Positions 12,066 to 52,115 of a stretch of 53,251 bases of DNA are shown here, piece after piece. The notes below the pieces were generated by a model, which did no database searches, was not told the DNA's origin, and was given only the letters and a program-made list of their open reading frames with translations. The DNA is from Holosporaceae bacterium. Lineage in GTDB: Bacteria > Pseudomonadota > Alphaproteobacteria > UBA3830. Numbering within the stretch: position 1 is the first letter of the stretch; each line of letters starts with the position of its first letter. A program made the position numbers and the translations under genes. The stretch lies in NCBI GenBank assembly GCA_031288225.1, contig JAITRU010000039.1, positions 1-53,251 on the forward strand, given 5' to 3'.

Positions 12066-13316
12066 ATGGAAGAAGATTCAACTTTAGAAACTGAAGCAAT
12101 TGTTTCTCAAAAACCAGCGAAACTGCTGATTGTAGATGACAACGAAAATGCCAGAAATCTGCTCAAGAGAAGGTTAGCAGTCTACGGCTATGAGGTAATG
12201 CCATCCAGCAACGAAGAGCAAGCAATGTCTATTTTGGCAGATAGTTCCGTGGATGCTATCTTCATGAATATGTTTTTAAATGGTATCAGCAGCTATGATT
12301 TTCTTTTGAAACTTAAGGCAAACAGCGCTCATAAAAATATCCCCGTCATCATGATATCCAGCGATGATGACGTGGAATTAGTGGTACGTTGCATAGAGGC
12401 AGGAGCCGAAGATTACATGGTCAAGCCTCTGAATCAGACGATTTTGAAGGCAAGATTGTCCAATTGCATCGCGAAAAAAGAAGCTCATGATAAGGAAATT
12501 GCCTATCTCGCCAAGATAGATCTTGGACAAAAACAAATAGTAGCACAGGAAAAAATGGCCTCCATCGGAGTATTGGTCAGCTCTATTTCCCAGGAATTAA
12601 AAAATCCACTCAATTTTATCATAAATTTCTCGGAGGTCAGTTCTGAAATATGCGATGAACTTATTAAAAACATTGAAATAGCCAAGGACAAAATTAGCAG
12701 TGATGTATATGAATACCTGCTTGGATCGATGAATAAATTTGGTTCGAATGTAAAAAAAATCTCGGAGTATGGGAAAAATGCCGATAATATACTAAGATTC
12801 ATGCTGACTCAATCCAATACATCGGATGGAAAAAAGCATCCGGGAAATATTAACAAAGTCATTGCGCAAACCATAACTATGCTTATATCCTCATACAAAG
12901 CAAACGGCATCACTAATCTTCCACAAGTTACCACAACCTTTGACAATGCCATCCCCCACATCAATCTTTCGATCCCGTCCCTTAGCAAAGCTATATACAA
13001 TATCCTCGACAATGCGATATATTCCATCGGCAAAAAGTTCGATAACCCATCTGATGCTAAGATAGCCATAACAACCGAAAACCTCTTTAGTACAGTGGAA
13101 ATAATCATACATGATGATGGAAATGGAATAAAAGCTGACATCATTGATAAAATATTTAATCCATTTTTTACCACCAAGCCGGAGGGAACTGGGCCTGGTC
13201 TAGGATTATCTACAGCCAAAGAGGTGATCGAAGATCACGACGGACAAATATCCGTCAATTCCATTGAGACAAAATTTGCGGAATTTCGAATTATCATCAC
13301 CAAGCCAACCGCTTAA
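12066..13316 (+). CDS. REC-histidine kinase-like fusion lacking canonical phosphoacceptors
   Basis: REC domain KLLIVDDNENAR...FMNMF; HisKA-like SISQELKNPLNF; intact N, G1, F and G2 ATPase boxes. Confidence 0.85.
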   Translation: MEEDSTLETEAIVSQKPAKLLIVDDNENARNLLKRRLAVYGYEVMPSSNEEQAMSILADSSVDAIFMNMFLNGISSYDFLLKLKANSAHKNIPVIMISSDDDVELVVRCIEAGAEDYMVKPLNQTILKARLSNCIAKKEAHDKEIAYLAKIDLGQKQIVAQEKMASIGVLVSSISQELKNPLNFIINFSEVSSEICDELIKNIEIAKDKISSDVYEYLLGSMNKFGSNVKKISEYGKNADNILRFMLTQSNTSDGKKHPGNINKVIAQTITMLISSYKANGITNLPQVTTTFDNAIPHINLSIPSLSKAIYNILDNAIYSIGKKFDNPSDAKIAITTENLFSTVEIIIHDDGNGIKADIIDKIFNPFFTTKPEGTGPGLGLSTAKEVIEDHDGQISVNSIETKFAEFRIIITKPTA

Positions 13317-17909: not shown

Positions 17910-19772
17910 ATGAAATTATTATTCGATTGGAGTGATTCTTTTTTTGAAACCAAGGAATCATGGCATGGAGACGAAAATATGATTTCGCTGAAAATTAGCC
18001 AATACGAAGGTAGTTTTGCTTCTGCAAAAGTACTGATTTGCGCTCAAAATTCCGAAAAATTACTACAAAAACAATACGCGCAAATAGGGGTGCAACGGGA
18101 CGAGGATAATCCACGCATTGATTTGCTCTTTTCCGGTAGATTGGTTGCATTTCCCGTCGGGTTTTCAGACGGTGTAATACAACTGGAACTAATAGCTGAG
18201 CCGGAAAATTACCGGCAGCAGCTGAAGACCTTCATCGACAATAATCTACAACAATATCAGCAAATTGATATGCATACCACTCACGGGCACCACATTCCCT
18301 TTGACGACTTGTTCTTCTCCCAAAAGGATCTGAGCAATCCAACAATTTTTTTAGAAAATGATGTAAAAATGTTTCACTGGTCTATGCGAACCGGACTGTT
18401 GTCCTTGTCTAACATAGCCCATGGAGAGCAAAAGATCACCATCAGCGGTGACCAAATCCTGCAAGATTCCCTGAAAGTGAGGTTGGCACGCGAACCCTAC
18501 AAAAACGTGAATGTTGTACTGGAGGCCAGCTGGATCCAGCGGATCTATGGCTATGTTGATTTGTATCCAATAATTGCATCAAATTTTAAAACCGGCTATA
18601 TCAATTCATTCACTAACATAAAAGCGGGATTAGAAAAACTCTGTAGCTTTCCTTCCCGTAGCTCCTATCACCTCATTCATTGTAGGGTAAATGAGATGAC
18701 TCCACCGCATACCGCTACCTATGTGCAAAAATGTCCTGCCGTTTCCCAGGAATTTTTAATCGACGATGGAAACGATGGACCAAAGTCAGGAATAGCCACA
18801 TCAACATCTTCCCGATCACCATCGGCAACATCGCCTTCATCTTCTTCTTCATCATCATCGTTGTCCGGAGGTAGGAAAAGAGTGCAATTTCGCCGCTTTT
18901 ATTTTCACGGGAAAATGCTTATTGGATGGAATTATCAGCAGAAGCGCCATGAAACCGTTCGGGTAAAGATTACCAATGAACATGTGCAATGTGGTAGAGA
19001 AAAAACCTTGTATTTGCGATTGAATCGCATCCAATTGGCAAAGAGATATCCATTTTGGTACTGTCATATGCGCTATGAAATTGGCGCAAAGATAATCCGG
19101 AATGGATTTGTCTGGGAATGTACTCGATCGCATTTATCATTGGAACAATTTGAGGAAACCAAGTGGAAACTAAAGGAAAAAATTCCTGACGCGCTGCAGG
19201 ATGACGCTGCGAGTTCGTTTTTTGCAACCAATCGTGGGAAAAATGCCATAAAGTATGCAATACAGAAGGCCATTGCCCTGATAACCTACTCATCCAGGTA
19301 CATTGAGATTAATCTCAGTGTTGATGCAGGTACGTTTCTGTTTGCCACCATAAACGATCAGATAACCATTGTGGATAACAGATTTCAGGGAGGCAAAGTT
19401 TCTGGAAAAATTATCAAAACCAATTTGATAGCCAATGCCAATGGAAGAATCCTGAACATTTCCATTGCCTGTTGTCCATATGAACTTGCAGAAAATTATC
19501 TGACTTTGCTGAATGATTATGTAAATACTCTACAAATTGCACCGGAGGAAAACCTGCCTAGGGCCGAGGATATTGTAAGAAATGTCGAAGTCGTGAATTC
19601 TCCTGAGGAACAGGAAGATATGATGGCTCAGCTATCGGCAAAATCCATAAAGGAACTGGAAAATCAGCTGAAAGCTCATGGCACGAAAATTAAGGTTGCT
19701 CTGCATCCATTTAGTACAACCAGAGAAATTGCTGAGGAAATTGATTTGCCAGAATTTTCTCTTTCTCGGTGA
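17910..19772 (+). CDS. Phage-like structural protein (putative)
   Basis: Long ORF with RBS gaggatagtat, Ser-rich linker, linked to lysis-type genes; identity uncertain. Confidence 0.4.
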   Translation: MKLLFDWSDSFFETKESWHGDENMISLKISQYEGSFASAKVLICAQNSEKLLQKQYAQIGVQRDEDNPRIDLLFSGRLVAFPVGFSDGVIQLELIAEPENYRQQLKTFIDNNLQQYQQIDMHTTHGHHIPFDDLFFSQKDLSNPTIFLENDVKMFHWSMRTGLLSLSNIAHGEQKITISGDQILQDSLKVRLAREPYKNVNVVLEASWIQRIYGYVDLYPIIASNFKTGYINSFTNIKAGLEKLCSFPSRSSYHLIHCRVNEMTPPHTATYVQKCPAVSQEFLIDDGNDGPKSGIATSTSSRSPSATSPSSSSSSSSLSGGRKRVQFRRFYFHGKMLIGWNYQQKRHETVRVKITNEHVQCGREKTLYLRLNRIQLAKRYPFWYCHMRYEIGAKIIRNGFVWECTRSHLSLEQFEETKWKLKEKIPDALQDDAASSFFATNRGKNAIKYAIQKAIALITYSSRYIEINLSVDAGTFLFATINDQITIVDNRFQGGKVSGKIIKTNLIANANGRILNISIACCPYELAENYLTLLNDYVNTLQIAPEENLPRAEDIVRNVEVVNSPEEQEDMMAQLSAKSIKELENQLKAHGTKIKVALHPFSTTREIAEEIDLPEFSLSR

Positions 19773-19830
19773 GAAGCTAAAAAAATCAAGCAAAAATTAG
19801 TTGGCCAATTGTTTTTAAAAGGAGGAACGA

Positions 19831-20775
19831 ATGTCCATTGTAAGAGGTATCCGATTTTTATCGGATGGATATGTGCGGGATTTTTGCGATGTGCCAGACA
19901 CAGAGGAAAATATGGAAACCACCGTCACCCTGGAAACGCATGACGACGGCAGCATTTGTCCCATAAAACTGGTTGAGGAATGGCCGGCATCAATTATTCT
20001 GGATGCCAGTATGCACCCGATAAAAATCAAGCAGCAGGCGGTACTGGAGCGTTTTGAGGACAACGGCAGCTTAGGGAAAAACAGTATCTACAACAACCCA
20101 CGCATTGATTCATGCTCGACGTTCAAAAATAGTAGGTTGTTTTGTTCGAAACTCGTGGTTCTTTTTGAAAAAGCTGGAGAGTATTTCTGCAATGGAAGGA
20201 GTCAATTTTTTATGGGCGAATCCTTCAACGAATATTCACTGATTTTTGGTAATGGGACTCCGGTTTCCGCAACTTCTTCCAAAAACAACAACACTGTACT
20301 GTTCGAGAAAAAATTCCAGACTACTGAGTCCAGCAGCATTGTCGAAAAATATACACGGGGAACCAATAAATTTTTACAAACCGAAGGCGTATCAGGCCGA
20401 GCACAATATCGTTTCTATGCCTATGGAGGTCATTATGAATATGGTGCTCATCCCCAAAACATAGAATCCTGCGTTTTTCATTCCACATCCGAAGGTCATG
20501 CCTCCTGCATATATTTGTCAAAATTGAGTGGATTGAAAAAAATTGGCATCGATCCCGATAACAAAACAAATATGCTGAATGACGCCAAAGCAATTTTTAT
20601 GCATACATTTACACCGTCGCAAAAAATGACTCTCTATGAGGAAATAAAAAACAATGGCTGTAAAATGCAACTTAACAACAACTATTCTGCTAAAAGTTGT
20701 ACCTATGGCAGCAATGGTTTGCTCCACATTTCCAATACCAATTTAATGAGGATCAATTTTATTCCCATGGATTAG
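19831..20775 (+). CDS. Hypothetical protein in phage-like cassette
   Basis: RBS aaaaggaggaacg ATG; no recognised domain. Confidence 0.5.
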   Translation: MSIVRGIRFLSDGYVRDFCDVPDTEENMETTVTLETHDDGSICPIKLVEEWPASIILDASMHPIKIKQQAVLERFEDNGSLGKNSIYNNPRIDSCSTFKNSRLFCSKLVVLFEKAGEYFCNGRSQFFMGESFNEYSLIFGNGTPVSATSSKNNNTVLFEKKFQTTESSSIVEKYTRGTNKFLQTEGVSGRAQYRFYAYGGHYEYGAHPQNIESCVFHSTSEGHASCIYLSKLSGLKKIGIDPDNKTNMLNDAKAIFMHTFTPSQKMTLYEEIKNNGCKMQLNNNYSAKSCTYGSNGLLHISNTNLMRINFIPMD

Positions 20776-20894
20776 TGGAATCATAGAAAGGATATGATCC
20801 TGATCCACGGGGAAGCAAAAATATCCCCAAAAAATCACATTCATTAGCGATGTCCAAAAATTCTTCCAACAACCTTCTGAAAGGAACAGTACCA

Positions 20895-21311
20895 ATGAAT
20901 TATTCACAAAATGACCTGCAAACACTTGCAAAAACCATTTATGGCGAAGCTCGTGGAGAACTACACAAATTTGGCATAGTATCCCTAATTGCCGTTGCCA
21001 ATGTCGTTGTAAATAGAAAAAGAAAAAATTTTGCAAATTCCATAGCAGAAGTTTGTGTTGCTCCCTATCAATTTTCCTGCTGGAGCAAGAGCGATCCGAA
21101 CTACAAAAAAATGATGCGGATTACCTCGGAAGAAGCTCACATCTTTGGTAAATGCTTGGAAACGGCAGAAAATGTTCTATCTGAAAAATGGCCTGATATC
21201 ACAGATGGATGCGACCATTACCACGAACGCAGCATCAGGCCGTACTGGGCTGTTTATTTGATCCCGAAAAGAATTTTCGGATCTCATTACTTTTATGTGC
21301 TTAAAAACTAA
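20895..21311 (+). CDS. Cell wall hydrolase (SleB/Hydrolase_2-like)
   Basis: LAKTIYGEARGE and VVNRKR...YQFSCWS signatures; ORF extends upstream to 20850. Confidence 0.8.
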   Translation: MNYSQNDLQTLAKTIYGEARGELHKFGIVSLIAVANVVVNRKRKNFANSIAEVCVAPYQFSCWSKSDPNYKKMMRITSEEAHIFGKCLETAENVLSEKWPDITDGCDHYHERSIRPYWAVYLIPKRIFGSHYFYVLKN

Positions 21312-22142
21312 GTGAAAGGAAAAAACGAAATGAAAGATTTTATAGAAAAAATAGTATTGAATTCCATCAATACACTAAAAGGTGAAATGGTAAATGTATT
21401 ACAGGAAGTTGGAAAGTCTCTACGATCATCTTCCTCCACCAATGAGGTTATCGACGATGTTCATGGAGAAATATCTACGATGCACAATGATGATGCCGGT
21501 ACCACCAATGAGTGGACGGAAAATTGCCGATACCAGGAATTATCACAATCAACCATGGTTGCTCCCGGAGAGACCGGAGAGGTGCAGCGTATTGTGCTGA
21601 CTGCCGAATCTCCGTTAATACAGAAGAAATTGCCTGACAATCAACCTAAAAGCAGTAATGATCTAGAAAAAAATGCCAAAGGAACAGATGACAAAGATGC
21701 TGATGCACAAAACAATGGTTGTAGCGGAAAAATTGACGACAACAATGTTCATACCGCCAATCATAATTTCTGCAGTGCTGGAATCTGCAATGATGGCGAT
21801 AATGCCAGAAATGGTTCCGGCAACAGCAGCATCCCTGGCGGCGGTGTCTTCGGCAATCCCAACACCATTCAGACCATCAACGCCTATGGCCGCAACAAAA
21901 GACTAAATATCATGATCCTCGGAGCCGCTGCAGGACTAATTGTATGTATGCTGATGCTTTCTCTATACCAAGGTGAATTGCCCGGAGAGGTTGTCGGCAT
22001 CATATCCACCGTATCCGGTATATTTGGCTCCTGCCTCAAGGATGCCTACAGCTTTGAATTTGGTTCATCCCGCGGCAGTAAGGATAAGGACGACAAAATT
22101 TCGTCAAGCATACTAGCAACACTGAATCATAATACCAAGTAG
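21312..22142 (+). CDS. Holin-like protein with long low-complexity N-terminus
   Basis: C-terminal TM segments followed by FGSCLKDAYSFEFGSSRGSKDKDD, reminiscent of phage/GTA holins. Confidence 0.5.
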   Translation: MKGKNEMKDFIEKIVLNSINTLKGEMVNVLQEVGKSLRSSSSTNEVIDDVHGEISTMHNDDAGTTNEWTENCRYQELSQSTMVAPGETGEVQRIVLTAESPLIQKKLPDNQPKSSNDLEKNAKGTDDKDADAQNNGCSGKIDDNNVHTANHNFCSAGICNDGDNARNGSGNSSIPGGGVFGNPNTIQTINAYGRNKRLNIMILGAAAGLIVCMLMLSLYQGELPGEVVGIISTVSGIFGSCLKDAYSFEFGSSRGSKDKDDKISSSILATLNHNTK

Positions 22143-22911: not shown

Positions 22912-22988
22912 TGGTCGGGGTAAGAGGATTTGAACCTCCGACATCTTGCTCCCAAAGCAAGCGCGCTACCAGACTGCGCCACACCCCG
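22912..22988 (-). tRNA. tRNA-Pro(TGG), encoded CCA
   Basis: Reverse complement folds as CGGGGTGTGGCGCAGTCTGGTAGCGCGCTTGCTTTGGGAGCAAGATGTCGGAGGTTCAAATCCTCTTACCCCGACCA. Confidence 0.95.
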
Positions 22989-23082
22989 CTTTTTCGTTCT
23001 GTTCCGTAGAATACAAAAATACGTTCCATACCACAATATACTAGTATATTAATATTTGTTGTTGATGTAGGCTTCGAAATTT

Positions 23083-23388
23083 TGTGCATAACTTTTTTTT
23101 GCGTTTCTGTATTTTATTAACCTATTATTAATGGAAGCAAAAATAATTTTGCATCTCATTGGATGAATGTGGATAAAAGTGTTAACAAGTTATTAACAAA
23201 GGTGAATAAATCGTCTGTCTTTGATAGTTGAAATTGCCGGATGAAAGTCCGTGAATTACTACTACTACTCAGATCTTTTTTAAAAGTTGTAGTGTTGTGG
23301 TTACGGAAATATGGCATTCCAAATGCGTAATTTTTCAGCAATGCTACCATTCATATTTGCTACGCACTTTTTCCCAAGCTTATGCACA
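23083..23388. promoter_or_regulatory. Candidate replication origin: DnaA and CtrA boxes
   Basis: TGTGCATAA 23083-23091, TTAACCTATTATTAA 23117-23131, TGTGGATAA 23168-23176, TTAACAAGTTATTAA 23182-23196, TTATGCACA 23380-23388; AT-rich, no ORF. Confidence 0.55.
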
Positions 23389-23459
23389 GGTTTTATGACA
23401 AGCGATTAGGTCTTGGTAGAGAATACTTGAATTTTCAGATGCCCGAAGAAAATGAGATT

Positions 23460-23562
23460 ATACCAAATCCCATCATCGATTAGCTATTGCCTGCCTGGCA
23501 GCGGCTGCCATAGAGCGTGTTCTAGAAACCATTTGGACAATCCAAAATGAGATTTGGTATTA
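23460..23562. repeat. MITE-like repeat family 1A, copy 2
   Basis: Few differences from copy at 4-105; TIR TACCAAATC...GATTTGGTA. Confidence 0.85.
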
Positions 23563-23565
23563 TAT

Positions 23566-23662
23566 CATAACCTGCTTTGAAAGTGCATTTGTAATGTCGA
23601 ATTTTCACTAGGATATAAGGCTGCTCATTGCGCTAACGAATGCACTTTCAAAGCAGGTTATG
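23566..23662. repeat. MITE-like repeat family 2 with perfect 24-bp inverted ends
   Basis: CATAACCTGCTTTGAAAGTGCATT / AATGCACTTTCAAAGCAGGTTATG. Confidence 0.85.
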
Positions 23663-23686
23663 TATACATAATTTTCGGCCTTCTTC

Positions 23687-23929: not shown

Positions 23930-24636
23930 TTGTTGGAGGTTTTTTTTTGTGTAGATGGTGTATAAATCATCGATTCATTCTTACATTCCTTGCAAAATCG
24001 TTTGACATTTTCGGAAATAAGATTTTCTTCTCTCACTGTTTTATCATGTTCAAAAATCTCTTTTTTGTTCCTATTGCATCTTACTTTTTTTTCCTTTTCG
24101 CTTAATAGCGTAACTATGTTTGCTTTTTCATGCTTATCTTTTATTTGATCTACCTTGCTGACTAATTTTCCCACGCTGGATACTGAAATAATTTTTCCAC
24201 ACTGAAATGAGTTATCAATATTTATTACAGTTCTTGTTGAAGGACTCAATGTATGGGGTAGTTTCTTTTGACCTGCAGATTTGCCACTAAAATAAGTTTT
24301 AGAACTTACCACTGATGAAGATGGTTTTGGTCCGAAACGCTTCACCATTAACGGAGTATTAATGGCCGAGAATTGGCATTTGGGAGACCCACCATTCGAA
24401 GATAGTATCGTTCTTTGAGTAGAACTAGTACACGTTGATGATGACAGTCTCTGCCTAGGAGAAGAACCTATCTCAAACCCTAAGCTTTTCAACTTATTAG
24501 AACGCGAATATTCCAAATTGTTGCAGAAAGTCGTTATGCTGTTTCCAGGATTACAGACATTGCGCAAACCCCTGATGGACAAGTCAAAAAAGAACGGTGA
24601 AGAACCCGTATCTCTGCTACTTTTGGACTGCGACAA
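23926..24636 (-). CDS. Hypothetical protein, Ser-rich
   Basis: Open frame with probable TTG start; upstream hairpin; no known domain. Confidence 0.4.
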   Translation of the reverse strand: MSQSKSSRDTGSSPFFFDLSIRGLRNVCNPGNSITTFCNNLEYSRSNKLKSLGFEIGSSPRQRLSSSTCTSSTQRTILSSNGGSPKCQFSAINTPLMVKRFGPKPSSSVVSSKTYFSGKSAGQKKLPHTLSPSTRTVINIDNSFQCGKIISVSSVGKLVSKVDQIKDKHEKANIVTLLSEKEKKVRCNRNKKEIFEHDKTVREENLISENVKRFCKECKNESMIYTPSTQKKTSNK

Positions 24637-24686: not shown

Positions 24687-26228
24687 TTATTTCTTCTCCG
24701 TTTCTTCTATTTTTTTTTTATTATCATCTTCTTCTGAAACATCATTATTGTTCTCATTCGTTTCTACTACTTTTTTTACTTCCTCTTCTTTTACTTCTTC
24801 TTTAGTTTCCTCTTCTTTTACTTCTTCTTCTTTAGTTTCCTCTTCTTTAGTACTTTCCTCTACTTTTTCTTCTTTAGTACTTTCCTCTACTTCTTCTTTA
24901 GTTTCCTCTTCTTTAGTACTTTCCTCTACTTCTTCTTTAGTACTTTCCTCTACTTCTTCTTTAGTTTCCTCTTCTTTAGTACTTTCCTCTTCTTTTACTT
25001 CTTCTTCATTACTACTTTCCTCTTCTTCTTTAGTACTTTCCTCTTCCTCTTCTTCTTCATTTTCATTACTACTACTTTCTTCTCCATTACTATCTTCTTC
25101 TTCTTCACTATTGCCAGAGGATGATGAATCCTTGATTCCAAGATTCTTGAATTTTTCCTTTATTTCTTCCACTTCGGCGGATAATTTTTTCTTTTTCTTC
25201 TTTTCGTTCTTTATAACTTGCTCTAGTTCTTTTGTTTCTTTTTCTTTTTCTTTCGTTTCTTTTATAAGTTCGCTGACTTTGTCTTTTTCTATATTATCAA
25301 TTGTTTCTTTTTCTTTAGCAATTTCTTCTACTTTTTCCCTTTTTTTCTTTACTTCTTCCTCAATTTCTTTCGCTTTTTGATCCTCAAGTTCAGCATCTTT
25401 TTTCGATTTCTGTACGCTCTCTTCTAAACTCTTAAGTTCTTGCTGCAGACGATATTCTTTTTTCTGCTTTTTTTGGTTAAGCTTAGAATTACTCTCTTCC
25501 ACTTCATTTCTTTTTTGTAATGTTTTTTCCAAAACTTTTGATTTATTCTCTAACTGACACCTTGCTTCTTCTTCTTTCTTCATTTTTCGCTTATTTTCCA
25601 GCTCATTTGCCACTTTTTCTTCTTCTAGCTTCATTCTTTCTAGTTCTTCTAGAAGTTTTTTCTGCTTCATTTTCTTTTCTTCAGCTATTTTAGCTTGTTC
25701 GCGCATAGTTTCCTTCAGTTGCTTGAGCCGTTCAGCGATCATACTAGCACTATCGGATTCGGCTTTTTTCTTGTGTTTTTTATCCTTTTGTTCATTAATA
25801 ACGTCGAAAAGCATATCATTCGTGGCGGAATAGCTACCAAGATCATTTTTTGATTCCTTAACTTTTAATGGCTTCTCCTGCGATTTATCAATAGTGTCAC
25901 TCGTAAGCATATCATTAAGAGGCTCACTTTTTGATTCCTTAGCTTTTTTTGATGGCTTCTTCCGCGATTTATCAATAGTGTCACTCGGTTCGTGCTTTGA
26001 TATATTATTAATGCTATCAATGAGCATATTATTCGTGGCGGAGCAGTTACTAAGAGACTTCTTTTTTGATTTCCCATGCGATTTATGCGAATTCCCATCT
26101 ACAACAGACACTAATTGCTGCTTTTCCAACTTTGGCTCATCATTAGTAGTTGACTTTTTTATTCCATAGGCATCATTACCTAGCAAGAACAGTGTTCCGG
26201 TAAATACATGTAGCAATTTTTTTTTCAT
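24687..26228 (-). CDS. Secreted Glu/Lys-rich coiled-coil repeat protein
   Basis: RBS aaggaggataatt ATG, signal peptide MKKKLLHVFTGTLFLLGNDAYG, EESTKEEETKEEV repeats. Confidence 0.75.
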   Translation of the reverse strand: MKKKLLHVFTGTLFLLGNDAYGIKKSTTNDEPKLEKQQLVSVVDGNSHKSHGKSKKKSLSNCSATNNMLIDSINNISKHEPSDTIDKSRKKPSKKAKESKSEPLNDMLTSDTIDKSQEKPLKVKESKNDLGSYSATNDMLFDVINEQKDKKHKKKAESDSASMIAERLKQLKETMREQAKIAEEKKMKQKKLLEELERMKLEEEKVANELENKRKMKKEEEARCQLENKSKVLEKTLQKRNEVEESNSKLNQKKQKKEYRLQQELKSLEESVQKSKKDAELEDQKAKEIEEEVKKKREKVEEIAKEKETIDNIEKDKVSELIKETKEKEKETKELEQVIKNEKKKKKKLSAEVEEIKEKFKNLGIKDSSSSGNSEEEEDSNGEESSSNENEEEEEEESTKEEEESSNEEEVKEEESTKEEETKEEVEESTKEEVEESTKEEETKEEVEESTKEEKVEESTKEEETKEEEVKEEETKEEVKEEEVKKVVETNENNNDVSEEDDNKKKIEETEKK

Positions 26229-26469
26229 AATTATCCTCCTTAAAAAAACTGGTCGGATTATACACCACAATTCTTACAGGTTGCAATGCCATAAAAAAAC
26301 AATTAATACAAAGCCCAAATAATATTCGGCATTTGACAGAGATGCTCTATTGTTCAGCGCTTTAAAAAAAATGACAGATCAATTTTTGGAATAGCTATTC
26401 ATATTTTTTGCACTTTTCAGTAGTTTTTTTTTGGATTTATGGCAGTGTTTTTTTATATTTTTTCATCTT

Positions 26470-27414: not shown

Positions 27415-27420
27415 CTAGGT

Positions 27421-28336: not shown

Positions 28337-28518
28337 TGAAAAATCAGAATTTTGTAGAGCTGTATCTATCTTTATAGGGCAATCCCCACAATGGTTGCTT
28401 GCAAAGTAGATGAATATTTTGCTAGCATTTGCCGGCCCTGAAGTTGTTGTTGCGCATGCTATGGCATGGTAGGTGGTGGTGTTTGGCTATATTGCTATCG
28501 GCTACGCATTTAATCTTA

Positions 28519-28609
28519 TACCAGATCTCGTTGCAAATTATCCAAAACATGCTTTGCATAGCCTGCAAATCAAGGATGTCATTTGGATACCAGACATGGG
28601 ATCTGGTAT
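28519..28609. repeat. MITE-like repeat family 1B, copy 2 (overlaps secretin 5' end)
   Basis: One mismatch relative to 16806-16896. Confidence 0.85.
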
Positions 28610-30345
28610 TACTCCTCTGTGGAATGTTGCTGGGCGGGTGTACAGATATGGCGGAGATGGAAACTCAGCATAGGAAATTTTTTACTCCTAGTTCCCTCAA
28701 TACACTATTATTGCCGGTAGATGATGCAGACGCCAACATCGATGATGGGAGCGCTGATGGTCAGGACGACGGCGATTTCGAACAGGTAATAGGCGAAAAG
28801 TTTCATAAACGCATTTCCGTTTCTGCCAATGAAAATATGAGAATGCGCGAGGTGCTCACCCAGATGGCTCATCTGGCCGGTGTCAATGTGTTCATTGCCG
28901 AAGATATAGGCGGCAGCGTTTCCTTTATGGCTACCAATCGAAAATTCATCGACATCATGAAAGACATTTGCGACAGTGCAAATCTTAGGTATTTCATAAG
29001 CGGAGATTCTGTAAAAATTGAAAACGATGTCTCCATGCTGAAATTTTATAATGTACCGTTCCTGAATATTCAGCGAGATACCCAAAGCTTGATGTCGATT
29101 TCGACGGATATATTTAACAATGGCTCGATATCCGACACAGAGGTGAAATCTGGTCCTTCCGCCAAAACGTCTGCTGTCGGTGTTTCTAGCTCCGGTGCTG
29201 CGCTTTCCAACAATGGATCTGCCAGTGTTGTTGTGGGATCAGCAAAAAACGACTTTTGGCGAGAATTGGAAAATACACTGAAATGTATTGTGGGAATAGA
29301 TAATAAAAGCTCCGATGATGCTACGAATGCGCCGATGGATGCGTATGTTACGGTGCACCAGCAGGCAGGAATTATTGCCGCCTATACTACCCAAAGCAAA
29401 CATGAAAAAATCAAAAAATATCTAAAATTACTAAGGGAAACCTCAGAAACTCAGGTGCTAATTGAGGCAAAAATACTGGAAGTTTGTTTGAGCAGTGAGC
29501 ACAAAAGTGGCATCGACTGGCATATTGTTGACGGTAACCTGACGACTACAAAATCCTTTGGCACCGGTGAGCTATTCACAATGGGTATTGACAGAAACAG
29601 TTTGCGTGCCATCGTTGGTTTTTTAGAAAAATTTGGTGCCGTCAAAACCTTGTCCAGTCCGCGCCTCACCATATTGAATAATCATTCAGCTATACTGAAA
29701 GTTGCAAAAAATGAGGTAATTTACATTCCGGAATTGCAAAAGCAGTATGGATCCGTGTCGAACCCCATCAGCATGGATTTTATTTCGGCAAACATAAAAA
29801 CCATTCCCATAGGATTGGTAATGATGGTGCAACCCTCCATTGACAGAAAAAATAATACCATTATGTTGAATATTCGCCCAACTATATCGAAGATTGCAGG
29901 CCATATGCAGGTACCATCCTTACTGCAGAGCTATAATTTACAAACGCCGGGAGGAGGTAATGCTGCAGCAATGGCCACAAATTCGACTTCATCGGCGCAG
30001 AAAATACCAATCGTAGATGTGCGCGAAATGGACTCAGTCTTGAAGCTAAATTCCGGACAAGTTGTGGTTATGGGCGGGTTGATGCAGGAAACTTCGAGCC
30101 GCAATCGATCCGGCATTCCCGGTTTTGCAGATACTCCCGTTGACTGGATTTTTGGATCCCGCGAAAATGGCACCAACGTGACGGAATTGGTAATATTTTT
30201 GAAAGCTACAATAGTACGTCAAAAAAATAGAGGCTATCACAATGCCGATAAAAAAATGTACAACACCTTTGCCAAGGATTCTCGTCCGCTGATCTTCGGT
30301 GCTGGGAAAAGTGAAAAAAGTACAGATAAAATTGGTAAAAAATGA
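28576..30345 (+). CDS. Secretin (type II secretion / type IV pilus GspD/PilQ-like) lipoprotein
   Basis: Lipobox LLGGC; VLIEAKILEV, SSPRLTILNNHSAILKVAKNEVIY and VVVMGGLMQE secretin signatures. Confidence 0.85.
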   Translation: MSFGYQTWDLVLLLCGMLLGGCTDMAEMETQHRKFFTPSSLNTLLLPVDDADANIDDGSADGQDDGDFEQVIGEKFHKRISVSANENMRMREVLTQMAHLAGVNVFIAEDIGGSVSFMATNRKFIDIMKDICDSANLRYFISGDSVKIENDVSMLKFYNVPFLNIQRDTQSLMSISTDIFNNGSISDTEVKSGPSAKTSAVGVSSSGAALSNNGSASVVVGSAKNDFWRELENTLKCIVGIDNKSSDDATNAPMDAYVTVHQQAGIIAAYTTQSKHEKIKKYLKLLRETSETQVLIEAKILEVCLSSEHKSGIDWHIVDGNLTTTKSFGTGELFTMGIDRNSLRAIVGFLEKFGAVKTLSSPRLTILNNHSAILKVAKNEVIYIPELQKQYGSVSNPISMDFISANIKTIPIGLVMMVQPSIDRKNNTIMLNIRPTISKIAGHMQVPSLLQSYNLQTPGGGNAAAMATNSTSSAQKIPIVDVREMDSVLKLNSGQVVVMGGLMQETSSRNRSGIPGFADTPVDWIFGSRENGTNVTELVIFLKATIVRQKNRGYHNADKKMYNTFAKDSRPLIFGAGKSEKSTDKIGKK

Positions 30346-30358
30346 TTGGATGACGTGA

Positions 30359-31009
30359 ATGAGTGGAAATAGACTACTAAATCGGCTGTGGCGCAAATCA
30401 CGGAGAGGTTTCTCATTGATAGAAGTGGCCATAGCCATTGTTGTTATCAGTATAATTGCCGGTTTTGCTCTGAAAGGGAAGGAGCTTATCCGCACTGCTC
30501 AGCTGAGATCTGTCATCGAACAGGTTAACGCCTTCCGAATCGCCACACAGTCCTTCTTGGATAAGTACGGAGCATTGCCAGGAAATCTCACCAATGCCGG
30601 AGAAATTTTTGACTCTGTCGTTGCCAGTGGCGATGGCAGCGGCAACATTTCTTCCCTTGAAGATGCTCGCAGATTCTGGCAGCAGCTGGCTGCTTCCGAA
30701 CTAATTACTCTGGAACTTGTCAACGGATTTCCCATTAGTAAAATTGGTGGCTATTACACCGTTTCAACCAATGCGGCGGGACAATCCGGCATCTGGATTA
30801 TTTTAAGCGGTGGTACCAGTAACAACCGAGATTTCAGCGGTATCATATCACAGGCTGAAGCCCACATCATAGATAGAAACAGTGATACCGGCAATCCATC
30901 ATTCGGTGATGTGCGCACTCTCAAAGCTAACGGGAGCAGCAGCATTGGTGCGCATTATGATCTTAGACAGAAAGACCGTGACTGCATTATCATGTTCAAA
31001 ATTTGGTAA
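30359..31009 (+). CDS. Prepilin-type N-terminal cleavage/methylation protein (pseudopilin)
   Basis: RRGFSLIEVAIAIVVISIIAGFALKG. Confidence 0.85.
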   Translation: MSGNRLLNRLWRKSRRGFSLIEVAIAIVVISIIAGFALKGKELIRTAQLRSVIEQVNAFRIATQSFLDKYGALPGNLTNAGEIFDSVVASGDGSGNISSLEDARRFWQQLAASELITLELVNGFPISKIGGYYTVSTNAAGQSGIWIILSGGTSNNRDFSGIISQAEAHIIDRNSDTGNPSFGDVRTLKANGSSSIGAHYDLRQKDRDCIIMFKIW

Positions 31010-48872: not shown

Positions 48873-51800
48873 CTAATCATTTTTCTCTTCTATAAGACCA
48901 ATCTTCGCAAGCATACGCAACACAATCTGCTGTCTCCAATTATGAGAATTTCTATTTACTACAAACTCCTCCTCTCTTTCAAAAACTATAACCAGCACGT
49001 CAAAGAGATACGACTTCGTAATTTGATTCACCATAGTATCGATGGTTACCGCATGGGTTACTATCTCCACAATCATTTCTTCGTATTGCGCAGGAGTAGT
49101 AACTCGTTGATTCAAATAGTCTTTTATTCCGAGCGGAAGGCTATTAAAAAATTCTGGTTTTTTAGTGGAGAGATAATTTCGCAAAAGTTTATTGCTGGCA
49201 TAAATATGAAGATCTTCTTCTAATGGTTGCTGCATGCCAAATAGACCATTCTTTTCCAACCGAGAAATGGCATATGCGTAGTAAGTAATATACTCAAAAG
49301 TTTGTGCACCATCTTCATTGTAAAAGTTAAGCGTATCTCTAAGAATCGAGTGCAAGCAAGAATGCAATACAAGTGGCATTAGTTCAGCAAACGTAACTTG
49401 TTCAATCCCGTGCAGCTTATCAACTTGTATAAGGCTTTCTAAGATCGTTGGTACTATCGTGGTGCGCATATTAGGACAATGGGCCCCAGACTGGATAAGC
49501 ATGCCAGCTAACTTAGTAAGTGATATAGCTAATTCATGGTAAGCCTCGTCTGCGCTGGAGCGCAAGTTAATCAATTTCTTGTGAAATAGTGCCACCAAAC
49601 ATGCAAACGCATTGGGGTCACGGAGAAGACCGTAGTGTCCCTCTTGATCATTATTTATATTTTCTATAAGCTTAGTCAACATCTCCCGAATGCGCTCTAC
49701 CTTATTAGGACTATAAAACTCATCGGGATCCATGGTAGACTCCAGTATTCCATATAGCTCTCTGTTTCCATTATTAAGCACAACATTGTTTATGAAGGAG
49801 CTAATATCTTGCACAAGCTCAGCTTTCGAGTCATTGATTGGTCTTTCGATGCAACCAAACAACCTAGGTAATATAGCATCGGAGTATAGTGCTACGCCAT
49901 CTTTATTAGAACCAGTGTGGCAACTCATGGTGTAGTCCGATGGATTCATCTCAAGCAACTGATTATTATCGCCATTATTATCCAATGCCCACTGCAGAGT
50001 GTTAGCTGTGCTATTATCTCCTGTTGGGCTAATTAATGCATTCATCAGATTGATAATATACAGTATTTCCACTTTGTTACTGTAACTGGATGCATCATTA
50101 TACATAAAATAATGGCCCCACAAGTGTGGGAAAAGCGGAACTTGACCAGCAGTCAGCGTATGTATTTGAAAATCACCAGAAACAGCAGCATTAGGAAACA
50201 ACGTTTGATTCTTATTATTCATAACTCCACAAAGACCAGGACTCATAATCCCATTACTTTCGTCAATCAGGTCTAAAAAAGAAGTTTTTCCTTTGCGTTC
50301 TTCTGCTGCCATTATGGGAGAACGCACTAGCTTGGAAACATATTTTTGCAAGCGCTTGATAAAACGATTATACCTTGTCACCGTATTCCTCAACAAATTC
50401 AATTGTTCATCAGTAATTCCAAACATCTGAGCGGTCATCTCAATTTCATCAATTTCTGGGATATTGCCATCATCATCAGGATTTTCATAAATCTGAAACA
50501 CTTTTCTTCTTGAAAATAAGTATGTTTTCAGTAAAACATTGTCACTATCAGGAGTCAACAGCGTGTTCTCATCATCAAGCAGATAAGCCACAAATCCCAA
50601 CTCATTTTCCGATGTACCACTGGATTTGAGAAATTCTATTAGACCAAAATTTTTCGCAATGGCTTCAAGATCTACAAGATTGCAAAAACAACACAGCAAA
50701 AATATATCTTTTTGTTTATTAGTCAAGTCTGTCGTTAGGTGACGCATGTGCTTTTCACTCAACTCACGGATGCTAGTATTGTTAGCAAAGCAAAAATCAC
50801 CAATTTTTTCAATGACATTGTTTGCTGAAAACTCGTTACCAGCCTCATCAGCCTCTTCCATGGCTTTTAACTGTTCGACAAAGGATAATGCTTTTATCTC
50901 TTCAAGAATTAAATGTTTTTTATAAAGTGGATCTTCTCTGGTATCTTCTTTGAGTTGCATTAAACGGTCCCGGCTCCATAGATCCAGAATACTGCTAAAG
51001 GACAACTTCTTTATAAGATAAAGCTGCCTAAGCGCAGACATTTCAGAGCAATAGCTTATAGCAAACAACAAACACTCTACTCCGAATACGGGTGGAAGCT
51101 GTTTATATATTGACTCAATCGCCCTGATTAGGGTACTACAACTACAGTCGAGATAGTTTAGGTCGTTTTCGCCGTTTTCTCGGGAAATACCAAGGTCTTC
51201 TAATTCATCCCAAATCCCTTCCACATTAACGCGGGTTCCCCCGAAATTAGGCCCCCCATATCGTATAAGCGCGACAGATTCCGCCAAGATTTGTCTGGCG
51301 CTCTCCATCCCTAATCTCACTTCATTTAGTATCCTCGAAACGTCCAGATCAGCTGCTGTAATAGACCCGGAATCAATGCTTTTCAGAATGGTGGCAAGCA
51401 ACTCCTGTATGCTGCTCTTACTTACCAAGAACCCTGCTGCTTCTTTTTCCCCAGGGAACGTAAACTCTGCGTAATGTTCGATAGAGGCTCGTAGCCCATT
51501 GCTCACTTCATCATGGAAGCGGCGATGAGTAATGTTGGTGGCTCTGAATCGCTTAGCGCGTTCAGACAACAGAGTTCTCTGCTGTGACTGCGGCTGTTGT
51601 TGCTGCTGCGGCGGCTGTTGCGACCGCTGCTGTTGTTGCTGTTGCGGTTGTTGCGGCTGTTGCGACCGCTGCTGTTGTTGCGACGGTAGCTGCGGTAGTA
51701 GGTGGCGTCGCCGTGACGGTTGCGGCTGTTGCGACTGCGGCTGGTACTGGTAGTACATCGGCGGCTGGTAGTGCATCGGCGGTTGGTAGTAGTACGGCGA

Positions 51801-52115
51801 GTAGTACGGTTGCGGCTGCTGCTGTTGTTGCGCTCCTCCAACAAATTGCCCGAATCCGAACGGCTGCTGTTGTTGCTGCTGCAGGTCCAGCGGTAGCTGC
51901 GACGGTATCAGCGGCTGTTGCGACTGCGGCTGGTTGTACATCTGCTGAAACAGCTGTTGGTTGTTCAGCTGCAGCCCTTGCATAATGTTCGACACTGCCA
52001 TCGGGTAAGTGTTTACGTCATTCACCATGTGCGGGATATGGAGATGGAGCGCTTCTATTTCGGCAAAGTATGCACAACTATAAATGTAAAAACTAAATTT
52101 CAGAATTTTTTTCAC
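48873..52115 (-). CDS. Large secreted protein with Gln-rich low-complexity N-terminal region
   Basis: GTG start after GAGGTAAGATC, signal-like N-terminus, long PolyQ/P/Y tract then about 900 aa of ordinary sequence. Confidence 0.7.
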   Translation of the reverse strand: MKKILKFSFYIYSCAYFAEIEALHLHIPHMVNDVNTYPMAVSNIMQGLQLNNQQLFQQMYNQPQSQQPLIPSQLPLDLQQQQQQPFGFGQFVGGAQQQQQPQPYYSPYYYQPPMHYQPPMYYQYQPQSQQPQPSRRRHLLPQLPSQQQQRSQQPQQPQQQQQQRSQQPPQQQQQPQSQQRTLLSERAKRFRATNITHRRFHDEVSNGLRASIEHYAEFTFPGEKEAAGFLVSKSSIQELLATILKSIDSGSITAADLDVSRILNEVRLGMESARQILAESVALIRYGGPNFGGTRVNVEGIWDELEDLGISRENGENDLNYLDCSCSTLIRAIESIYKQLPPVFGVECLLFAISYCSEMSALRQLYLIKKLSFSSILDLWSRDRLMQLKEDTREDPLYKKHLILEEIKALSFVEQLKAMEEADEAGNEFSANNVIEKIGDFCFANNTSIRELSEKHMRHLTTDLTNKQKDIFLLCCFCNLVDLEAIAKNFGLIEFLKSSGTSENELGFVAYLLDDENTLLTPDSDNVLLKTYLFSRRKVFQIYENPDDDGNIPEIDEIEMTAQMFGITDEQLNLLRNTVTRYNRFIKRLQKYVSKLVRSPIMAAEERKGKTSFLDLIDESNGIMSPGLCGVMNNKNQTLFPNAAVSGDFQIHTLTAGQVPLFPHLWGHYFMYNDASSYSNKVEILYIINLMNALISPTGDNSTANTLQWALDNNGDNNQLLEMNPSDYTMSCHTGSNKDGVALYSDAILPRLFGCIERPINDSKAELVQDISSFINNVVLNNGNRELYGILESTMDPDEFYSPNKVERIREMLTKLIENINNDQEGHYGLLRDPNAFACLVALFHKKLINLRSSADEAYHELAISLTKLAGMLIQSGAHCPNMRTTIVPTILESLIQVDKLHGIEQVTFAELMPLVLHSCLHSILRDTLNFYNEDGAQTFEYITYYAYAISRLEKNGLFGMQQPLEEDLHIYASNKLLRNYLSTKKPEFFNSLPLGIKDYLNQRVTTPAQYEEMIVEIVTHAVTIDTMVNQITKSYLFDVLVIVFEREEEFVVNRNSHNWRQQIVLRMLAKIGLIEEKND

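Follow-up and report, generated by a model that had tools for sequence, protein, structure and literature searches.

A probable replication origin with Cori-like DnaA and CtrA sites upstream of tRNA-Pro(TGG) in an alphaproteobacterial lineage lacking hemE

The window, which is the whole 53,251-nucleotide stretch that was analysed, contains a tRNA-Pro gene with the anticodon TGG on the minus strand at 22912-22988 (ARAGORN; Rfam RF00005, 65.1 bits). The gene is transcribed away from an intergenic gap in which DnaA and CtrA boxes are clustered. At its far end, this gap is bounded by a MITE-like element at approximately 23458-23566, which is not part of the proposed origin and has ~45 copies in the genome, mostly at 88-98% identity; both flanks had been predicted correctly. 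This element and an adjacent one (23555-23666) are ~110 bp each. This contig ends in one copy of the first (1-104), and such repeats therefore probably break the assembly. An Rfam search of the gap region returned nothing but the tRNA, which was also the sole match in a plasmid search. In relatives, a conserved TTGAAA-N16/17-TAATGTA-like element immediately precedes the tRNA, and the boxes are located upstream of it. The element is degenerate in the window, where the presumed tRNA-Pro promoter region (22989-23060, minus strand) gives a loose match only.

In a stretch of 306 bp upstream of the tRNA, five perfect boxes were located, three for DnaA and two for CtrA, all as exact motif matches at the positions originally predicted. 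Two of the DnaA boxes are on the minus strand, TTATGCACA at 23083-23091 and TTATCCACA at 23168-23176, the latter being identical in sequence to E. coli R1. The third, TTATGCACA at 23380-23388, marks the distal edge and is on the plus strand, opposite to the other two; a distal DnaA box in opposite orientation was also present in two relatives (G012 and G017). The CtrA boxes, which match the palindromic motif TTAA-N7-TTAA, are TTAACCTATTATTAA at 23117-23131 and TTAACAAGTTATTAA at 23182-23196. They are 65 bp apart from start to start, compared with about 43-65 bp in relatives. The close pairing of a DnaA box (23168-23176) with a CtrA box (23182-23196) was confirmed, with a spacing of 5 nt rather than the predicted 6. 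Further TTAA-N7-TTAA matches in the window were found at 24348 and 40791, and a distant copy of TTATGCACA was present as predicted, at 40622-40630 instead of 40624-40632. For the IHF consensus WATCAANNNNTTR, the gap contains no perfect match and two one-mismatch matches, both overlapping CtrA boxes.

The surroundings of the boxes are AT-rich, as had been noted, with 71% A+T in the 300 nt upstream of the tRNA compared to 61% downstream and a window average of 59%. The AT-richest 40 nt of the gap (23110-23149; 34/40 A+T) is a candidate unwinding element, with an A+T content reached by only 0.066% of 40-mers in the window. Based on the site cluster, the chance test, the family footprint, the GC skew and parS, the entire proposed oriC was placed at 22989-23388 (~400 bases, no strand).

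The expected divergence of genes from the gap was seen in part, the exception being the 8.7-22.1 kb region to its left, which is mostly on the plus strand. This region includes a run of ORFs without family matches (17910-22142, plus strand) around a SleB-type cell-wall hydrolase (20850-21311), which may be a prophage remnant. To the right, an MshL-like pilus secretin followed by a prepilin-type protein (28429-31009, plus strand) is kept in G012 and G034, and in G034 the pair directly adjoins the tRNA-Pro box cluster. Two low-complexity proteins are encoded on the minus strand, one of 527 aa that is glutamate/lysine-rich and without a Pfam match (24687-26270) and one of 1080 aa that is glutamine-rich (48873-52115).

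The frequency of the motifs was determined with strict-consensus site lists in the draft genome (938,161 bases, 52 contigs, 92.8% complete). The TTATNCACA motif occurs 54 times (27 for the reversed control) and TTAA-N7-TTAA 37 times (155 for the reversed control). When these 54 and 37 sites were placed at random in 20,000 rounds, five sites never fell within 306 bp and four did so 8 times. Single DnaA and CtrA motifs are thus not rare in this genome, and the cluster of five is rare. The genome-wide density count suggested in the original prediction revealed no better cluster elsewhere in the draft, as the other 306-bp stretches had at most two sites each. A pair of CtrA boxes 27-55 nt apart occurs once in the genome, at the tRNA-Pro gap.

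The proteins that would act at such a site are encoded in the genome. A search for ctrA, which had been proposed as a check, identified a 258-aa response regulator ORF on contig C26 of this genome (G000) that scored 355.4 bits against NF045991, above the NCBI equivalog cut-off of 350. DnaA is encoded on contig C37 (PF08299, 110 bits), and three IHF/HU-family proteins are also encoded. In the window itself, a response-regulator and histidine-kinase hybrid (12066-13316, plus strand) shows weak similarity to the PleD and CckA families and may belong to the CtrA phosphorelay. The hemE gene (TIGR01464) was absent from all 41 family genomes, with positive results in the control genomes, and the hemE landmark of Caulobacter, Rickettsia and Wolbachia is therefore unusable here.

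For the family comparison, the tRNA was sought by BLAST in 41 genomes and matched in 40, although in a few of these the match was solely to a different tRNA-Pro isoacceptor. Boxes were counted at the 38 tRNA-Pro(TGG) loci of 37 genomes from six genera, G011 having two copies. In the 1 kb upstream of these loci there were 32 DnaA and 70 CtrA boxes, compared to 0 and 4, respectively, in the 1 kb downstream. Of the 38 loci, 28 had two or more perfect sites in the 500 bp upstream, and none had as many in the 500 bp downstream. The flanking protein genes differ between genomes on both sides of the tRNA. Since these genes have been reshuffled, the conserved unit consists of the box cluster and the tRNA.

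The arrangement of the two motifs also recurred. A composite pattern, in which a CtrA box comes no more than 30 bp after a DnaA box, was matched 21 times in the 41 family genomes (reversed control, 3), and seven genomes including this one have a composite DnaA-CtrA cluster immediately upstream of tRNA-Pro(TGG). The DnaA-to-CtrA gaps recurring at tRNA-Pro were 3, 3, 5, 5 and 10 nt. With genus 4 left out, 16 of the 22 CtrA-box pairs found genome-wide were at the tRNA-Pro locus, counted against tRNA positions. Many genus-5 tRNA-Pro loci have CtrA boxes without a perfect DnaA box.

The rsmD gene, which adjoins the tRNA, was also considered as an origin neighbour and was rejected, there being no box cluster on the rsmD flanks in relatives; the anchor is therefore the tRNA and not rsmD. 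In G001, the cluster shares a contig with rsmD only because tRNA-Pro is nearby. A link to tRNA-Pro was likewise not supported in three other families of the order, where no cluster was found in eight genomes and a single CtrA box was present at tRNA-Pro, in G039 only.

GC skew was assessed as the skew to the right minus that to the left of the locus, a statistic which is independent of the chosen orientation and positive at an origin. With 5-kb flanks, the skew rose across the locus in 16 of 18 genomes with a mean of +0.116, compared to -0.009 (sd 0.109) for random positions on the same contigs; the P values from resampling are approximate, owing to overlap among the null positions and to the relatedness of the genomes. 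The rise was seen in 11 of 14 genomes with 10-kb flanks and in 9 of 11 with 20-kb flanks. Single contigs were rejected as evidence, the extrema in G020, G019, G064 and G005 lying elsewhere. As skew is noisy and driven by gene orientation, the pooled test alone was used. For the window, the difference was negative with 5- and 10-kb flanks, where it is distorted by the glutamate-rich ORF at 24687-26270, and reached +0.099 at 20 kb. Being positive at 20 kb only, the window does not itself display the rise that is seen at the level of the family. Four-fold-site skew in the window was ambiguous. The original prediction had named a GC-skew minimum elsewhere as evidence against it, and the minimum within the window alone was at 27415, ~4 kb from the gap, which weighs weakly against the locus.

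ParABS systems typically lie close to oriC. Sites resembling parS with up to two mismatches were found 1.9-15 kb from the cluster in seven relatives belonging to four genera (G003, G005, G009, G014, G015, G016 and G019). None was present in 132 kb of other family loci, and 0.6 were expected in shuffles. In five of the seven genomes, parS was at or near the start of rsmG inside a murA-rsmG-addB block, where RsmG (TIGR00138) and MurA (TIGR01072) were assigned by their families and AddB scores below the curated cut-off. A sixth genome, G003, has murA and rsmG. No parS was found in the window, even when three mismatches were allowed.

In part of genus 4 (G022, G025, G028, G030 and G036), no boxes were found at tRNA-Pro. 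In this sub-clade the tRNA retains the promoter-like element, and DnaA-CtrA clusters occur elsewhere. Those of G025 (L060:5267-5296 and L059:5130-5183), G028 (L062:4264-4320, contig C11) and G036 (L065:97-450, contig C27) lie away from tRNA-Pro and are mutually similar in sequence, which suggests that they may represent a moved origin. A tentative scheme, which we hold to be possible though somewhat short of an even chance, is that the hemE-less family keeps a CtrA-gated origin at tRNA-Pro(TGG) and that the DnaA-CtrA module of the sub-clade moved to another chromosomal site. If this were true, CtrA control of initiation would be much wider than Caulobacter and the Rickettsia and Wolbachia predictions, and an origin would be able to relocate as a unit.

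Two other arrangements of these motifs were observed. In three genomes, an MlaA-like lipoprotein gene and a PHA depolymerase gene are separated by a divergent promoter gap in which a DnaA box and a CtrA box, 6 nt apart, are conserved (L061:9949, L063:8485 and L064:9931). In G025 and G032, ~85-bp repeats occur in several copies with TTAA-N7-TTAA at both ends (e.g. G025:C13:13585-13755). These are either mobile elements with CtrA-like sites or have terminal repeats that merely resemble CtrA sites.

Based on these data, the gap that separates tRNA-Pro(TGG) from the MITE is very probably the oriC of this small-genome alphaproteobacterium, given that the same arrangement is found at tRNA-Pro in most relatives. 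We infer origin activity of the gap from sequence evidence, and the identity first proposed for it gains support from the linkage of the boxes to the tRNA in the family, the skew in 18 genomes, the parS sites of seven relatives and the presence of the CtrA and DnaA genes. That CtrA acts at this putative oriC is likely, by analogy with known systems. In the proposed mechanism, DnaA-ATP would bind the three TTATNCACA boxes and open the AT-rich DNA between them. CtrA~P would bind the two TTAA-N7-TTAA boxes beside or between the DnaA boxes and block the loading of DnaA, so that firing would follow only after clearance of CtrA~P and initiation would be confined to that part of the cell cycle. We infer the direction of the CtrA effect, repression, from Caulobacter Cori.

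Three other explanations for the boxes were weighed. Chance clustering in AT-rich DNA could be favoured by the AT-rich composition of both motifs and by the frequency of each in the genome; however, no random placement reproduced the five-site cluster, and the arrangement recurs next to this tRNA in six genera, for which the opposite side of the gene served as control. The cross-genome footprint already refutes chance, and its probability is negligible. The boxes could instead form a CtrA- and DnaA-controlled promoter region for transcription of tRNA-Pro(TGG), with no role in replication. Both proteins act as transcription factors elsewhere, the boxes are always upstream of the tRNA, and a promoter-like element is conserved between boxes and tRNA in relatives. 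Against this, the boxes are distributed between about -80 and -400, a much longer stretch than one promoter would occupy, the nearest box in the window being ~95 nt upstream of the tRNA, and the DnaA boxes occur in both orientations. Control of the tRNA would also leave unexplained the GC skew and parS, both of which point to an origin, and the box-less sub-clade retains the promoter-like element while its DnaA-CtrA clusters are elsewhere. A promoter function in place of an origin is therefore improbable.

DnaA-box clusters can titrate DnaA, and the evidence for the locus is all positional and says nothing of strand opening, which would suit a DnaA-titration or regulatory locus (datA/DARS-like) near, and not at, the true origin. 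This is the sole such cluster in the genome, however, and in relatives the change of polarity is centred at the locus. CtrA boxes are, to our knowledge, no feature of datA or DARS. A titration or regulatory locus was judged slightly less probable again than a tRNA promoter, and oriC remains the preferred reading of the gap.

The closest known counterpart is Cori of Caulobacter crescentus, with which the gap shares interleaved DnaA boxes and CtrA sites, an AT-rich gap and an adjoining housekeeping gene. In Cori, five CtrA sites are accompanied by weak G- and W-type DnaA boxes and an IHF site, and the neighbours are hemE and COG1806. The gap here, by contrast, contains two CtrA sites, its TTATNCACA boxes are perfect, an IHF site is not clearly present, and tRNA-Pro(TGG) takes the place of hemE. 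Cori lies close to the hemE promoter, and placement beside the tRNA-Pro promoter may resemble this closeness. hemE, which is a landmark of Cori and not part of its mechanism, was not a neighbour of the proposed origin. In Cori, the DnaA boxes are interleaved with several TTAA-N7-TTAA CtrA sites, some close or overlapping, in an AT-rich intergenic gap (PMC1914354, PMC4468827). CtrA~P beside the DnaA boxes blocks initiation there, and firing occurs once it has been cleared (PMC1914354, PMC8116508, PMC4468827). Caulobacter strains without CtrA affinity at all five Cori sites can be obtained, and the sites turned essential under nutrients plus antibiotics (PMC4468827). The role of CtrA at the tRNA-Pro gap could therefore be modulatory and not essential.

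A 2015 review noted that CtrA sites had not been seen in alphaproteobacterial origins outside Caulobacter, with Rickettsia prowazekii as a possible exception (PMC4468827), and no tRNA-linked alphaproteobacterial origin was found in a literature search. In the present small-genome family, most members have CtrA boxes at the presumed origin, and many also have DnaA boxes there. How old and how widespread CtrA-gated initiation is can therefore be tested. For drafts without hemE and with weak GC skew, the region upstream of tRNA-Pro(TGG) may serve as an oriC landmark. parAB has likewise been suggested as an anchor for ori (PMC8116508). The relatives with parS at or near the rsmG start, 2-15 kb from the cluster, resemble origins that have parS near rsmG (gidB); the window itself differs in having no parS. 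The origins of Rickettsia prowazekii and Wolbachia were predicted in silico from DnaA, CtrA and IHF sites in an intergenic gap, with three DnaA and four CtrA sites in about 400 bp in Wolbachia (PMC1914354). The locus described here is similar to these in its DnaA and CtrA sites, its intergenic position and the reduced alphaproteobacterial genome. Those predictions were located via hemE or COG1806, whereas the present one uses neither and is anchored on a tRNA gene that is conserved in the family. The gap is a probable oriC with likely Cori-like CtrA gating; the lineage has no hemE, and its origin has a new landmark.
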